From: Gracilibacillus ureilyticus
GTDB taxonomy: Bacteria; Bacillota; Bacilli; Bacillales; Amphibacillaceae
Length of the DNA stretch: 64,000 bases
Direction: 5' to 3'
Assembly (NCBI RefSeq): GCF_900111195.1
Contig: NZ_FOGL01000002.1
Location: forward strand, 1-64,000
In this document: positions 22,439 to 39,807 of the stretch, one piece after another
Layout: each line of letters begins with the position of its first letter
Numbering within the stretch: position 1 is the stretch's first letter
The notes under the pieces: model-generated
The model's database searches: none
What the model was told of the DNA's origin: nothing
What the model saw: the letters and a program-made list of their open reading frames with translations, nothing else
Translations under genes and position numbers: made by a program

Positions 22439-23332
22439 ATGGGGGTATTCAGGGGGATCGGCAAGGGGATTGGTACGGTTGGGGGCGGAGTGATAGGAGG
22501 TGCCGCTAAATTAACCGGAAAAGCAGTCGGCAGGAAACATAAAGGTGCTGGCAAATGGCTGGAGGATGTAGGAGGAAGTGTTGAAGAAGCCTCCAAAGCT
22601 GCCCTGGAAAATGCCGGCCAATTTATCGATGGGGCTAGCCAGAGTACATATGGAATGATGAGAAAAGATGAATACTATAAGCAAAAAGGAATCCATGACT
22701 TAAAGGATTCTACAGGGAGAACGGTCAAAGGAATTAGTGGTGCTTTTCATTATACGGCACAAAATGTTGGGACAGCATACAGAGGGTTCATAAGCGGTAA
22801 CAATAAACAAGTAATTGAAGGTTTAAAAAATGTCGGTAAGGTAGTAGCTGTCTCGGGACTCGCGATAGGTGTAATCGACATAATAGACAGTGCAGATGTT
22901 CAGGCAGAAGAAATTGAAACAAGAAACGATCATTTGAATGGTACCAGTCATCTGGAGACTGGAGTGCCTTTTATGGAAAAAACAATAGAGTTACCTAACG
23001 ATGAAGTTGTAGAGGGAACCTTCCCTGTATTTGATTCTGTCTTTACTACGGTTATCGCAGAAGACTTATACTTAGATAGTGACAGAGTCCATTTCAACTT
23101 GGCAAACGAAACATTATATCAGGCAATTTTGACAGAACCTGAATTAGCCAGTCAATTAAATTTAACACAGGCAGATATGCAGGGACTGGCAAATGGGGAG
23201 ACCCCTGAAGGCTTTACATGGCACCATAGCGAGGAACCTGGAAAGATCCAGCTGGTGGATGAAGAAATACATCAACAGACAGGACATACTGGCGGCCGTG
23301 AAATATGGGGCGGTGGCAGTGAGTTCAGGTAA
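22439..23332 (+). CDS. WHH-motif HNH/ENDO VII nuclease toxin-like protein
   Basis: The 297-residue protein has a Gly/Ala/Lys-rich N-terminal region (1-75, VFRGIGKGIGTVGGGVIGGA) and a helical, partly hydrophobic middle, VAVSGLAIGVIDIIDSADVQ (about 140-160). Its C-terminal nuclease domain (about 178-297) is typical of the WHH branch: an N-terminal VPFMEKTIELPNDEVVEGTF block, then ETPEGFTWHHSEEPGKIQLV, then EIHQQTGHTGGREIWGGG. The WHH histidines and the later histidines are likely metal and catalytic ligands. Such domains end polymorphic toxins. No LXG, WXG100 or signal sequence is visible and no SUKH-type immunity gene follows. The start is behind GAAAGAAAGG. Confidence 0.8.
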   Translation: MGVFRGIGKGIGTVGGGVIGGAAKLTGKAVGRKHKGAGKWLEDVGGSVEEASKAALENAGQFIDGASQSTYGMMRKDEYYKQKGIHDLKDSTGRTVKGISGAFHYTAQNVGTAYRGFISGNNKQVIEGLKNVGKVVAVSGLAIGVIDIIDSADVQAEEIETRNDHLNGTSHLETGVPFMEKTIELPNDEVVEGTFPVFDSVFTTVIAEDLYLDSDRVHFNLANETLYQAILTEPELASQLNLTQADMQGLANGETPEGFTWHHSEEPGKIQLVDEEIHQQTGHTGGREIWGGGSEFR

Positions 23333-23475
23333 TAGCAAACAAGGGACGGGTTCATTCAAAGGGAACTCGTCCTTTAGTGTTCTTTTGCCAAAATAAGTTA
23401 TTGAAATTTTTACAAAATATAGGTATTGTTAATATTAGTGAAAAAATCAGGGGCTGGTTTGGGGAACTTTTGGAT

Positions 23476-23880
23476 AATTAATAAAATTAAGTGCAACAAT
23501 GTCCATGTATGACTAATATTAGGAGTTGATTAATTTGATACAAAAGTTTTTAAGTTTCGATAAAATGATTACACCTATGATTATTAAAGTGGTCTTCTGG
23601 ATCGGTATAGTAATAACTGTTTTATCTGGTTTAGGCACAATGATTTCGGGTTTTAATTCCTTCTACGGCGGCGGTCTCCAAGTTTTTACTGGACTTTTAA
23701 TTATTATCATAGGGCCGATTGTAGTTCGGATTTATTGTGAATTATTAATTTTAATGTTTAAGATTTACGATACGTTAAGAGAGATTAGGGACAATGTCAC
23801 TGTTAGTAAAAGAGATACAATAGAATAGTTTCGTAATAGATAATAGATACAAAGCATTGTTGCACTTGATTTTGTTAATT
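23476..23880. mobile_element. DUF4282 cassette 1 bounded by inverted repeats
   Basis: A 26-base left end (23476-23501) and its inverted copy (23855-23880) agree at 24 positions; the core is AAGTGCAACAATG on the left and CATTGTTGCACTT on the right. They enclose only one gene, a DUF4282 membrane protein. The same core repeats enclose the second DUF4282 gene near 37.4 kb. There is no transposase inside, so this would be a non-autonomous or unknown type of mobile cassette. A target duplication could not be settled because flanks are AT-rich. Confidence 0.55.
23535..23828 (+). CDS. DUF4282-domain small membrane protein, copy 1
   Basis: The 97-residue protein begins at a TTG nine bases after AGGAG; a TTG at 23526 sits right against that site and is less likely. 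KFLSFDKMITPMIIKVVFWI begins the first membrane helix (about 14-38); a glycine-rich turn (YGGGLQVFTG) separates it from the second (about 50-85, ending IVVRIYCELLILMFKIYDTL). This layout is the DUF4282 family, whose function is unknown. It is about 75% identical over much of its length to the copy at 37449 and lies inside matching inverted repeats. Confidence 0.85.
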   Translation: MIQKFLSFDKMITPMIIKVVFWIGIVITVLSGLGTMISGFNSFYGGGLQVFTGLLIIIIGPIVVRIYCELLILMFKIYDTLREIRDNVTVSKRDTIE

Positions 23881-24015
23881 AAAATGAAAAAACACAGTCT
23901 CCAGCATCCTGAGAATATCCGCCCGTTCCAGCGGGGACTTTTCTTCCCATCCCTGGCTACCGCAGTTCGTTCCTGTATACAGAAATGTATCACACTGCAA
24001 TTGCTTCAAAATCAT
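23875..24015 (-). pseudogene. Short open frame, possible dehydrogenase-gene remnant
   Basis: A 46-codon frame with ATG start but no ribosome binding site reads GWEEKSPLERADILRMLE in its middle, which resembles the early region of aldehyde dehydrogenases (W-x-x-x-SPxERAxIL). The surrounding ~100 bases are richer in GC than the neighbours. It abuts and slightly overlaps the outer edge of the right inverted repeat of cassette 1. The assignment is weak. Confidence 0.2.
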
Positions 24016-24195
24016 GAAACCTTTTAAATATCTTTCGCGTAAATGGTAATAAAGGGAAAAACAGGATATAGCATGACCTCTCTTATATTATGATCAACCT
24101 TACAAATAATTGATCTGTGGAGAAACTTTTAACGGAAGAGGGGCTTATACGTAATCCTCTAATTAACCATTTTGTTAGAAGGAGGAAGGTGCTTT

Positions 24196-24576
24196 ATGTT
24201 TAAAAGGTTTTTTATGGTTTTTTTAACATTGATATTGGCTATTGCAGCTTTACTGTTAGCTGCTCAATATCCTACGGGACCTAACACCGTTTCGTTTGAT
24301 GAGCCGGTACCTTTATTGCTATCTGCCGGGATGCTGGTCCTGCTGTTTTTACCGCCTTTAATCTTATCTTTTTTTAATAATATGGTGGTAAAAATTATAT
24401 CGGCTATTTACCAAGGTTTTATTGTTTTAAGTTTTCTCATCCTTATACCGATTGGACTGATTATCCCGAGCTTTTGGATTATCGCTAATGCAGTTGCCGG
24501 TGCGGTTGTAAGTATTTCGAGTATTATTGTAACTATTTTAGTAGGGTTGAAGAAAAGAAATCCGGCTGTAAATTAA
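24196..24576 (+). CDS. Hypothetical small membrane protein
   Basis: The 126-residue protein starts at ATG 24196 behind GAAGGAGGAAGG; the longer frame begins at a TTG without its own site. Four hydrophobic segments are seen: about 5-23, 40-58, 68-88 and 92-117. Charged residues are few and mostly at the ends (MFKRFF, GLKKRN), consistent with a four-helix integral protein. The family is not recognised and the gene stands alone. Confidence 0.65.
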   Translation: MFKRFFMVFLTLILAIAALLLAAQYPTGPNTVSFDEPVPLLLSAGMLVLLFLPPLILSFFNNMVVKIISAIYQGFIVLSFLILIPIGLIIPSFWIIANAVAGAVVSISSIIVTILVGLKKRNPAVN

Positions 24577-24690
24577 AAAATGAGAGTTTGACATAACGAT
24601 CTTGTTCCGCACAAAATACGAATATTAGAAAAAATTTAATGCGCATTATATGGATGCTGTGCAATAAAGTGGTATTATATTATATGCTAT

Positions 24691-24810
24691 ACCGCCGCTC
24701 CGTCCGGCCCCGCGGCAAAGAAAACACTACGAAAGTGATCTTTACTTGAGTAGATGTTGCACTTGTGCCCTTGGGTGAAAGCGAAGCAATCGGCCGAAGC
24801 GGTGGTTTTT
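24691..24810 (+). ncRNA. Candidate structured RNA, GC-rich, ending in a T-run
   Basis: In an AT-rich setting this stretch is clearly GC-rich. ACCGCCGCT (24691-24699) pairs with AGCGGTGGT (24798-24806) with one G-U, and the latter runs into TTTTT. Just inside, CGGCC pairs with GGCCG. Smaller hairpins follow in between: CACT/AGTG, ATCT/AGAT, GCAC-TT-GTGC and CCC-TT-GGG. No open reading frame explains it. It could be a small RNA, or the end of a decayed mobile element; TGTTGCACTTG (24755-24765) also occurs in the DUF4282 cassette ends. Confidence 0.4.
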
Positions 24811-24870
24811 CACTTTATATATTTCAAAATTAACATATCCCTTTTATAATCTGCCACAAAAATATAAATT

Positions 24871-25671
24871 TTATTTAACGTGATACCTTCCAATCGGCAC
24901 AACTGAGGGTGAACCGGAAACGGGATCTTTTACCACTGAACAATGCAGTCCGAAAATACCTTTAATCATTGTCTCTGTAATAACCTGTGATGGTGAACCT
25001 TCTGCCACTAGTCTTCCTTGATAAAGGGCAAACATCTTGTCAGCATAACGTGCGGATAGATTTATATCATGGAGCACCATGACGATGGTTGTTCCGTATC
25101 TTTTGTTAAGGTCTGTTAACAGATCAAGAATTTCGACCTGGTAAGTAATATCAAGAAATGTCGTCGGTTCATCGAGAAACAATATGTCAGTTTGCTGGGC
25201 AAGTGCCATCGCAATCCAGACCCTCTGCCTTTGCCCGCCGGACAGCTCGTCAATATTATGATTGGCAAAATACGTTATGTCCATGATATCCATTGCTTCT
25301 GCTACTGCTTCATAATCCTTATTGGTCCAGCTTGCGAAAAGGGACTGATGAGGAAATCTTCCGCGACCAACCAGGTCCGCAACAGATATTCCTTCAGGAA
25401 CAACAGGGGACTGTGGCAGCAAACCTAAAACACGTGCCAATTGTTTTGGTGGAATCTTACTAATCTGCTTGCCATCGAGCGTGATTTCCCCTGATACCGG
25501 TTTGATCAGTCTCGCCAGTGTTTTCAGCAGTGTCGATTTACCGGAACCGTTCGCTCCAATAATCACACTTATTTCATTTGGCGGGATTTCCAGGCTGACA
25601 TCATTAATAATAATTTTTTTCTCATAACCAGCTACAATATTCTTTGCTCGAAAATGATGTGTTTGTTTCAT
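24871..25671 (-). CDS. Iron-siderophore ABC transporter, ATP-binding protein (FepC/YusV type)
   Basis: The 266-residue protein has Walker A GANGSGKST, signature LSGGQRQRVWIAMAL, Walker B ILFLDEPTTFLD and H-loop VLHDINLSARYADK, the classical FecE/FepC/YusV pattern. It powers uptake of ferric siderophores through the two permeases encoded upstream. The start codon overlaps the stop of the permease gene by one base. The operon is behind a Fur box at 28907. Confidence 0.92.
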   Translation of the reverse strand: MKQTHHFRAKNIVAGYEKKIIINDVSLEIPPNEISVIIGANGSGKSTLLKTLARLIKPVSGEITLDGKQISKIPPKQLARVLGLLPQSPVVPEGISVADLVGRGRFPHQSLFASWTNKDYEAVAEAMDIMDITYFANHNIDELSGGQRQRVWIAMALAQQTDILFLDEPTTFLDITYQVEILDLLTDLNKRYGTTIVMVLHDINLSARYADKMFALYQGRLVAEGSPSQVITETMIKGIFGLHCSVVKDPVSGSPSVVPIGRYHVK

Positions 25672-37257: not shown

Positions 37258-37376
37258 AGGGAAAGAGTTATCATATATATTCAATTTTTACCATAATGTT
37301 GAAATTATCAGAATATATATGTATGATGGTTAATGGTGTGAGAATGTGGGTCTGTTCTAAAATCTTATTAGTTAGT

Positions 37377-37802
37377 AAAATGAAGTGCAACAATGTCGAT
37401 GGATGATGATTGGTAAAAATAAAATGTCACATTATGGAGTTGATTAATTTGGTAAAGAAATTTTTAAGTTTTGATAAAATGATCACACCTTCTATTATTA
37501 AAGTAGTGTTCTGGATTGGTGTAGTAATTGTTGTGATAACTGGTCTGATCACAATGATTTCAGGGCTTTCTTATTACGGAAGCGGCGAACAGGTTTTTTC
37601 TGGAATTATAACTATATTATTAGGACCGCTGGTAATTCGGATTTATTGTGAATTATTAATTTTAATGTTTAAAATGTACGATGCTTTACAGGATATTAGA
37701 GAGCATCTAACTGCTGGCAATAAAAACACAATTGACTAGTCTTCCCCACTGATTTTCACATAAAGATATTGTTCCATACCAGACATTGTTGCACTTGATT
37801 TT
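37377..37802. mobile_element. DUF4282 cassette 2 bounded by inverted repeats
   Basis: The left end (37377-37395) and right end (37784-37802) are inverted copies differing at one of 19 positions; the core AAGTGCAACAATG / CATTGTTGCACTT is the same as in cassette 1. They enclose a single gene, the second DUF4282 protein. The spacing from left end to gene is longer than in cassette 1, so the copies have diverged inside while their ends are conserved. Confidence 0.55.
37449..37739 (+). CDS. DUF4282-domain small membrane protein, copy 2
   Basis: The 96-residue paralogue of the protein at 23535 has the same TTG start behind GGAG and the same first helix (KFLSFDKMITPSIIKVVFWI) and second helix (VIRIYCELLILMFKMYDALQ). 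The most variable part is the extracytoplasmic turn and the last 15 residues. No function is known. The longer frame from 37410 is not supported by a binding site. Confidence 0.85.
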   Translation: MVKKFLSFDKMITPSIIKVVFWIGVVIVVITGLITMISGLSYYGSGEQVFSGIITILLGPLVIRIYCELLILMFKMYDALQDIREHLTAGNKNTID

Positions 37803-37848
37803 ATTCGTTAAGGAATGGTAGCACTTCAACACAGAGAAGCATAAAAAA

Positions 37849-37896: not shown

Positions 37897-39807
37897 TTAG
37901 GATCTTTCTTCTTTTGGCTGAAATGGCACGACATTTCCTGTGCCGGTTTTTGACGCTACCTGGTTTCTTCCTAAAGCTTTTGCCTGATACAGTGCTTCGT
38001 CTGCTTGTTTTAACACACTGTTCAAGTCCATCTGCTTATCAGGAACTGTTGTATACAGGCCGATACTTAAAGTGACATATTTGGAAACCGGCGAAGTGTG
38101 GTGCGCTATTTCCAACTGTTCGATTTGTTTATTGATATCTCTTGCAACACGCTCTGCCTCTTCCTGATTTAATCGCGGAATCAGACCAACGAATTCCTCA
38201 CCACCATATCGTGACACTAATCCGCCGGGCAGTGAGCTGATTTGCTTATCCAGTTCCTGGGCAACCTGCTGCAAACATTCATCACCTTTTTGATGTCCAT
38301 ACCAATCATTGTATTTTTTAAAATAATCAATATCTAAAAACAGGATGGAAACTGGTGCTTTCTCTTTTGCGCAAAGTTCCATTTGTTCCTTGAAATAATC
38401 ATCAAATTGTCTTCGGTTCGGGATATTCGTCAATCCATCGACTAATGCCATATTTTTCAGTTTAACATTTAATTCCTTCAGCTTTTTATTCGATTGCTGT
38501 AATTGATTGGTACGTGCTTCAACCTTTGCTTCCAGATCACTGTTAAGCTGAGCTAAGTCGTTCGCCAGACTTTTTGACAGATCAAGCGATTTGGACAGTC
38601 TTCTCGATATAACCAGGGACAGGCATATAACGAAAAAGACAATCCCGATAGGATATACATCAACATCCGGTAAGCGGAGAAATTCTGCAGAAATATCTAT
38701 CAGAATTGTAATCATTAAAAATACGATTCCGATTAACAGGTAGTATCTCTCCGCATGTTTGCTTCTCAGTGATCTCGCAAGGACAATCAAAGAATAGCAT
38801 ACACATATAATCATGAATAGATGAAAATAGACTTCAAATAACAGATAAACTTTCGCTTCTGTAAATATTGTAAGAAGATCATAAATAACAGCAACGATTA
38901 TCGTGATGATAGTAAACCATCTGTAACTTTCCTTCAGATAAAGACGGTAAATGACCATTGATAATAACGGAACATGGGAATATAGGCTAATGTAGTCCAG
39001 TTTATTCGCAAGCTCCCAATCAACATTCGGAAAAAACTTCGTAAAGAATACATCACCAACCATTAAATACCGGAAAGCTGCCACTAAACAGAGCAATCCA
39101 AAATAATAGAAATATGGTTCTGTCCGTCGGAAAACGCCAAGGCCGATATGATAGATTCCTGCTAACACGAGAAAACCAATGATTACCGATTGAAAAATAA
39201 CTTCCATCATATGACTTGCATGGATGTTATCAGATGTGCCAAGAATGACAGGGTCCAGGATTCCACCATCGACATGATGATAATTAGAAATCTGTAACGT
39301 TATCGTGAAACTGCTGGATTCTGGTGAAAAATAAACCACCCGAGGGTGCTTCTGCGGTATACTCGTACTCTGGTCTATACCGACTTCTCCGCTTTGGGCA
39401 ATCAGTCTATCGTCCACCCACAATTTATTAGCGGAAAACATCACAGGAACCTGCAAACCTAATATATTTTCCGTGTCTGCTGTTGTCACCTCTAACCGGA
39501 ATGTGGCATAGCCTTCGCTTGGTAAGGTTTCTCCAGCTATCGTATGGGTATTCCAAATGAGCGGTAAATTGACAACACTCGCTTCATTACTTATCACTCC
39601 TTCAGAAAAGTCCCCCGGTTCCAATAGCTGGTTCCAGTAGAATTCCCACTCTCCATTTAACGGTATTAATTCCTCTTCCTGATCCCATGCAGATAAATTT
39701 ATCTCTCCTTCATCTGCTGTGAAATCTGTTGTAACGCTTCCATATGGAGTTCCGCATGCTGCCAGGAATAATGTGAAAAACAGTATGCCAATAAGTTTAA
39801 GTCTCAG
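37897..39807 (-). CDS. 7TMR-DISM membrane diguanylate cyclase lipoprotein, rare start codon
   Basis: The GGDEF enzyme makes cyclic di-GMP from two GTP. The longest standard-start frame begins at TTG 39624, but the open frame continues upstream without a stop and encodes a lipoprotein signal peptide (LRLKLIGILFFTLFLAAC) right behind GAAGGTGAC. The start must be the CTG at 39807 or the ATT at 39810, since no ATG, GTG or TTG is available; the protein then has about 636 residues. Order: signal and Cys, extracellular 7TMR-DISMED2-like beta domain (about 60-200), seven membrane helices (about 205-400), coiled coil, GGDEF (about 455-615) with intact RYGGEEF. The allosteric RxxD site upstream of it is absent. 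Confidence 0.82.
   Translation of the reverse strand: MRLKLIGILFFTLFLAACGTPYGSVTTDFTADEGEINLSAWDQEEELIPLNGEWEFYWNQLLEPGDFSEGVISNEASVVNLPLIWNTHTIAGETLPSEGYATFRLEVTTADTENILGLQVPVMFSANKLWVDDRLIAQSGEVGIDQSTSIPQKHPRVVYFSPESSSFTITLQISNYHHVDGGILDPVILGTSDNIHASHMMEVIFQSVIIGFLVLAGIYHIGLGVFRRTEPYFYYFGLLCLVAAFRYLMVGDVFFTKFFPNVDWELANKLDYISLYSHVPLLSMVIYRLYLKESYRWFTIITIIVAVIYDLLTIFTEAKVYLLFEVYFHLFMIICVCYSLIVLARSLRSKHAERYYLLIGIVFLMITILIDISAEFLRLPDVDVYPIGIVFFVICLSLVISRRLSKSLDLSKSLANDLAQLNSDLEAKVEARTNQLQQSNKKLKELNVKLKNMALVDGLTNIPNRRQFDDYFKEQMELCAKEKAPVSILFLDIDYFKKYNDWYGHQKGDECLQQVAQELDKQISSLPGGLVSRYGGEEFVGLIPRLNQEEAERVARDINKQIEQLEIAHHTSPVSKYVTLSIGLYTTVPDKQMDLNSVLKQADEALYQAKALGRNQVASKTGTGNVVPFQPKEERS

Follow-up and report, generated by a model that had tools for sequence, protein, structure and literature searches.

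Conserved inverted repeats resembling the inner part of IS30-family ends bracket DUF4282 genes in two Gracilibacillus species

Long-range processing stems flank rRNA genes, with a long duplex bracketing the body of the transcript as one may in the loci described here, which differ in that they enclose a protein gene. In messenger RNA, the precedents for pairing between 5′ and 3′ untranslated regions (UTRs) are hok and icaR of Staphylococcus aureus, and according to excerpts of PMC3868564 the icaR pairing covers the Shine-Dalgarno sequence and feeds RNase III. At the level of DNA, a gene without a transposase lying between two short inverted repeats has been described as a mobile insertion cassette (PMC3913671, in its excerpted text), and our loci share that build, of which MIC231 of Bacillus cereus and mic-qnrD are examples. 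This is the closest described kind, yet we do not file our loci there, because homology between them continues past one of the repeats; target duplication is usual in such cassettes and none is convincing here, and, as a further difference, neither host yielded an insertion sequence carrying the repeat in full. Insertion sequences of the IS30 family, which have 26-bp inverted repeats (PMC9333248, in excerpt), share with our loci the core AAATTAAGTGCAACA, which in the Gracilibacillus IS30 sits towards the inside of the repeat; our loci lack a transposase gene and show no recognisable outer repeat part.

Both DUF4282 genes in the window (the whole 64,000-nucleotide stretch of Gracilibacillus ureilyticus DNA that was analysed) are bracketed by inverted repeats, which we refer to as arms, each gene with its arms forming a unit. 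An inverted-repeat scan found the arms of unit 1 at 23475..23501 (left, + strand, best conserved over 23480-23501) and 23855..23881 (right, +), 27 nt long, 93% complementary and separated by 353 nt, whilst those of unit 2, placed by the scan and by the positions of AAGTGCAACAATG, lie at 37376..37397 (left, +) and 37782..37803 (right, +) and are 22 nt long, 95% complementary with one G-G mismatch in the duplex, and separated by 384 nt. The same scan returned four weaker pairs besides (76-84%). The sequence AAGTGCAACAATG has four exact copies in the window, each at an end of unit 1 or unit 2, and five in the 4.07-Mb genome, the fifth being unpaired and within a gene which we take to be xylose isomerase. 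In 140 kb of sequence (the window and four loci of relatives, 18-20 kb each) only three 22-base inverted repeats matched at 20 or more of 22 positions at the spacing of the units, these being unit 1, unit 2 and a third unit in Gracilibacillus oryzae TD8; one further inverted repeat, at locus L219, scored 19/22. The G. oryzae unit has the same arms, with a single change in one. We label the three units c1, c2 and g13, the first two in our own genome (G000) and the third in G. oryzae (G013). The inverted repeats around both window genes are confirmed, as a first-pass annotation of this DNA had described them, including the shared core at both ends of the second copy; its statement that no transposase lies inside also holds, DUF4282 being the sole gene with a family match in the DNA between the arms.

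The gene of unit 1 lies at 23535..23828 (+) and that of unit 2 at 37449..37739 (+), in each case from a TTG start of our own choice (the listed open reading frames begin at 23526 and 37410), preceded by a Shine-Dalgarno-like GGAG in the sequence at 23522..23525 (+) and 37436..37439 (+), which is kept in all three units. Both proteins match Pfam DUF4282 (PF14110), with E-values of 2.1e-18 for unit 1 and 1.6e-16 for unit 2 and scores of 67.1 and 61.1 bits against a curated cut-off of 27. Neither window copy matched an entry in PADLOC or NCBIfam, nothing among solved structures matched the DUF4282 family profile, and DUF4282 was named nowhere in the literature searched. A text search for the arm core gave nothing related by title among the matches listed, and Rfam over 23300-25000 gave no family at gathering score. 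One stretch of the gene (23728-23762 in unit 1, 37639-37673 in unit 2) is near-identical across the three units at silent positions also, in contrast to the greater part of the gene. Directly upstream of unit 1, the protein at 22439-23332 carries Colicin-DNase and WHH nuclease domains in a domain search, in line with the nuclease toxin gene proposed beside the first copy.

The window also holds a dispersed intergenic repeat at 24569-24832 (core 24707-24786), with 26 further matching places in the same genome, some of them maybe pieces of one copy, and matching rows in at least 11 of the 17 genus genomes. It shares TGTTGCACTTG with the right arms, and this sequence is in seven of nine other fetched copies of the repeat. 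The repeat belongs to no Rfam family, and we found no reason to join it with the arms.

The arm pattern occurred six times in 159 family genomes, all at the three DUF4282 genes, and the search among relatives for arm pairs that had been suggested as a check on mobility thus returned none at any other gene. A scan of an 84,980-species collection found 18 stretches matching the arm pattern, one of which is that of G. oryzae; the remaining 17 (gene content is listed for three of them) had no second copy on the opposite strand at up to three mismatches, and L056, L059 and L072 had one at four mismatches, 0.9-5.4 kb away, in a count that runs one too high for some exact matches. Viral contigs gave six single matches to the arm pattern, none with a close partner. 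The gene itself is somewhat wider spread, with DUF4282 present in 5 of 41 relatives and matched order-wide in 16 of 397 genomes, our own counted; five plasmid records hold it at 37-44% identity (known from the gene match alone, not from arms), and phages gave no match. The DUF4282 genes of three same-genus genomes besides G. ureilyticus and G. oryzae are without arms. None of 17 arm-less loci (14 validly tested of the 16 order-wide loci outside our own genome, and the three same-genus genes) had a flanking inverted repeat at the 5% shuffle level, the minimum being 0.07 at L016, in a test which was given 21 loci, three of them with arms, from which L185 and L193 (partial match) were excluded, and in which the start was set too far upstream in some rows, for example L016 and L186. 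Compared with mobility, the earlier suggestion that the repeat has a role in regulating this gene family is the better fit, in a small clade, but for the family at large the 17 arm-less loci speak against it. As candidate element ends, AAAGTCAAGTCCAACAATG repeats in genomes G011, G007 and G015 were rejected because they lie in reading frame near the end of an open reading frame, presumably that of a transposase of IS4 type, which has decayed in some copies. Loci L035 and L043 (G011) and L049 (G007) belong to a repeated element whose open frame of 467 aa, which we likewise take for an IS4-type transposase, has a near-arm sequence in frame near its end.

Units c2 and g13 adjoin the 3′ ends of orthologous GGDEF genes in identical orientation (in the window at 37897..39624, - strand), and constitute one unit at a shared position in two species. 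An ABC-transporter operon, which we take to be siderophore-type (its ATPase alone was family-scanned), stands next to the G. oryzae unit and, in the window, between units 1 and 2. About 8 kb from this operon to unit 2 (29.0-37.2 kb) is missing at the G. oryzae locus, so that DNA was either inserted in our genome or deleted in G. oryzae. The G. oryzae locus lacks a counterpart of unit 1, an absence which fits loss and also gain by movement. In G011 and G001 some 400 bases next to the GGDEF orthologue are free of arms, in flanks too diverged for an exact empty-site alignment. In the DUF4282 tree the three arm-bearing genes are united at 99/99, beside the arm-less genes of G012 and G001 (84/86), and within them c2 and g13 are paired at 94/84, narrowly below the level that the tool stars. 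The G. oryzae gene shares 78/97 amino acids (79% DNA identity) with unit 1 and 72/96 (76%) with its positional partner unit 2, and this closer identity to unit 1 speaks against simple orthology by place.

Third codon positions are identical at 60/97 between c1 and g13, 60/96 between c1 and c2, and 57/96 between c2 and g13, compared with 53-63% in four neighbouring ABC-transporter genes and 50% in the GGDEF gene; the silent divergence of the unit copies is at species level. The gene is under purifying selection, first and second positions being identical at 178/194 between c1 and g13 against the 60/97 at third positions. Columns identical in all three units amount to 40/44 in the arms, 43/96 at third codon positions and 28/89 in non-arm UTR. 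As the arms are nearly unchanged at a species-level divergence, they are evidently kept by selection.

Similarity between the units continues beyond the left arm, in a promoter-like block, not mentioned in the first-pass annotation, at 23401..23429 in unit 1 (+; TTGAAA, 17 nt, TATTGT) which aligns with 37299..37327 in unit 2 (+; TTGAAA, 17 nt, TATGAT) and with TTGAAA-17-TATTAT in G. oryzae. Local scores for this block, which was spotted post hoc, are 20 (c1-c2), 22 (c1-g13) and 21 (c2-g13), each reached by 0 of 500 shuffles with dinucleotides preserved where the script managed. In a comparison with 1516 AT-rich pieces taken from the other loci fetched, the blocks of c1 and c2 had no match at 20 or higher and that of g13 had two (scores 25 and 20), the c1 block scored at most 17 against the rest of the window, and the block is absent upstream of five arm-less DUF4282 genes. 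A plain promoter scan gave sites not above shuffles within 2 sd (4 vs 3.0, sd 1.7; 7 vs 3.9, sd 1.9), and the promoter that we predict before the left arm therefore rests on the shared block. The block lies about 20-75 bases beyond the left arm in c1 and c2 and 60-112 in G. oryzae. From the predicted promoter down to the left arm the distance is about 45-50 bases in units 1 and 2 and about 87 in g13. Past the right arm, c1 has no similarity to c2 or g13, and that between c2 and g13 is the GGDEF gene only, so that homology continues past the left repeat and ends at the right one for c1. Given that the shared block stands outside the left arm, the two arms most likely fall in untranslated regions, the left one in the 5′ UTR and the right one in the 3′ UTR, perhaps of one transcript.

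In the predicted sense RNA, the arms of c1 pair with a probability of 1.00 at 22/22 positions, and those of c2 and g13 mostly at 0.9 or above, with weaker outer pairs (0.46 at the c2 end, 0.39-0.76 in g13). The sense arm duplex is calculated at -25.4 to -27.1 kcal/mol, 4-7 kcal/mol stronger than the antisense duplex in all three units, because five of the six arm-to-arm differences within units are, by our reading, G-U compatible on the sense strand; this bias is weak, amounting to about four independent events (1 in 16), some differences probably having been inherited. Predicted pairing follows from the arm sequence and does not amount to proof of it, and among the three units, too few for covariation, no arm pair has changed on both sides. 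Complementary 5′ and 3′ UTR stretches in one message, and a possible RNase III substrate, are features that the units would share with icaR and hok, by prediction in our case; icaR differs in using a 7-nt motif over the Shine-Dalgarno sequence, and the units would use about 22 bp upstream of it (PMC3868564, in excerpt). In all three units the GGAG follows the left arm and falls outside the arm duplex, and the ribosome-binding site is not covered as in the icaR/hok type.

We favour, tentatively and with slightly less than even confidence, the reading that the features are DUF4282 transcription units of some age, passed on by vertical descent, with arms acting in cis, perhaps via pairing in the mRNA, and not cassettes ending at the arms. 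Such a transcription unit would run from promoter through a 5′ UTR with the left arm, the Shine-Dalgarno sequence and the gene to a 3′ UTR with the right arm, the arm sequence having probably begun as the inner part of an IS30-family terminal repeat and then been kept by selection as a cis-acting element. By the mechanism that we think likeliest, the arms would pair in the mRNA in a duplex of about 22 bp, closing the message into a loop that holds the ribosome-binding site and the gene, and the duplex might protect the ends, give RNase III a substrate or adjust decay. With the Shine-Dalgarno sequence outside the duplex, a role in protecting the message, in processing by RNase III or in controlling decay would be likelier than occlusion. 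The comparisons show the arms, how well they are conserved, that they are limited to this gene in the collections searched, the common upstream block and the shared place beside GGDEF; the promoter, the placement in UTRs, arm pairing in the cell with its effect on the message, and the IS30 origin are inferred. The near-invariant letters of the arms point to sequence recognition beyond pairing alone, and contact with a protein or transposase would explain them better than a pure RNA clamp.

The main rival of the inherited transcription unit is an IS30-driven mobile insertion cassette or MITE, in which the arms are terminal inverted repeats, DUF4282 is the cargo and a transposase acts in trans, and we regard it as rather unlikely. 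Its foundation is an IS30-family element in genomes G006 and G009, whose right end CAAATTAAGTGCAACAATT matches the c1 left arm AAAATTAAGTGCAACAATG at 17/19 positions, in the same orientation and on the inner side of the IS30 repeat; the other end of this element, ATATTAAGTGCAACACCT, is less arm-like. IS30 ends in the genus read GACnnnTTGTmAwATTAAGTGCAACA, and a 15-base core occurs at 29 sites in the 17 genus genomes, of which six are arms, 12 belong to IS30 ends and 11 stand isolated (8 for a reversed control pattern), in a pattern built with arms and IS30 ends in mind, which shows specificity and not an independent match. From these comparisons we consider a derivation of the arms from IS30-family ends, namely the inner part of the terminal repeats, to be likely. 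Movement would also account for two copies at separate sites in one genome and for the end of c1 similarity at the right arm, and in E. coli an IS30 transposase in trans moves transposase-less IS30 circles (PMC9333248, in excerpt). Against it, the genus IS30 elements, which are candidates for the autonomous element that a mobile unit would call for, match the arms in the inner 15 bases and not in the outer part: none of the six arms shows a recognisable form of GACnnnTTGT, the outer ten of the repeat's 26 bases, and after the core the arms continue ATG where IS30 ends have CCT, GTT or ATT. The homology that runs past the left arm, the species-level divergence of the copies and the lack of further copies among the 159 family genomes speak against it likewise. 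No IS30 transposase was found in our own genome or in G. oryzae, both of which are drafts, from which repeated elements can drop out. Target duplication, judged by eye in flanks whose element edges are uncertain, is not convincing, being ambiguous in AT-rich sequence at unit 1 and with nothing clear at unit 2 or in G. oryzae. Of the initial proposal of a one-gene mobile unit moved in trans, the match of the core to genus IS30 ends stands, and the lack of other copies and the shared GGDEF position count against the rest; present mobility of the units is unlikely and recent mobility is not supported. That IS30-type ends have been domesticated here, now immobile, transcribed on both sides and forming a long mRNA clamp which controls a small protein, is a reading that we consider unlikely.

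Two DNA operators, with a sequence-specific regulator on both arms controlling the upstream promoter and possibly looping the DNA, would explain why the arm letters are conserved, pairing aside, and would suit the position of the left arm past the predicted promoter. Yet the genome has no other paired exact site, which would imply a dedicated regulator for two genes only, and the core-to-core distances of 353, 388 and 366 nt in c1, c2 and g13 do not preserve one helical phase. An operator with an exact inverted copy behind the gene is unusual, which counts further against operators, and we hold them to be quite improbable. An invertible, phase-variable segment, flipped relative to its promoter by recombination at the arms, is suggested by arms which enclose the gene and ribosome-binding site with the predicted promoter outside, but is very improbable, as all three units have one orientation relative to the block and no recombinase domain was found among 11 window proteins scanned.

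If the arms act on the mRNA, as in the inherited transcription unit that we favour, these genes would offer a compact and readily testable case of bacterial end-to-end message pairing with an identifiable transposon origin, and domesticated ends, if true, would show a way in which transposon ends can turn into long-range regulators acting through RNA. If the arms are mobile ends, the units would be an IS30-type gene cassette with DUF4282 as cargo. Either reading would provide a handle on DUF4282.
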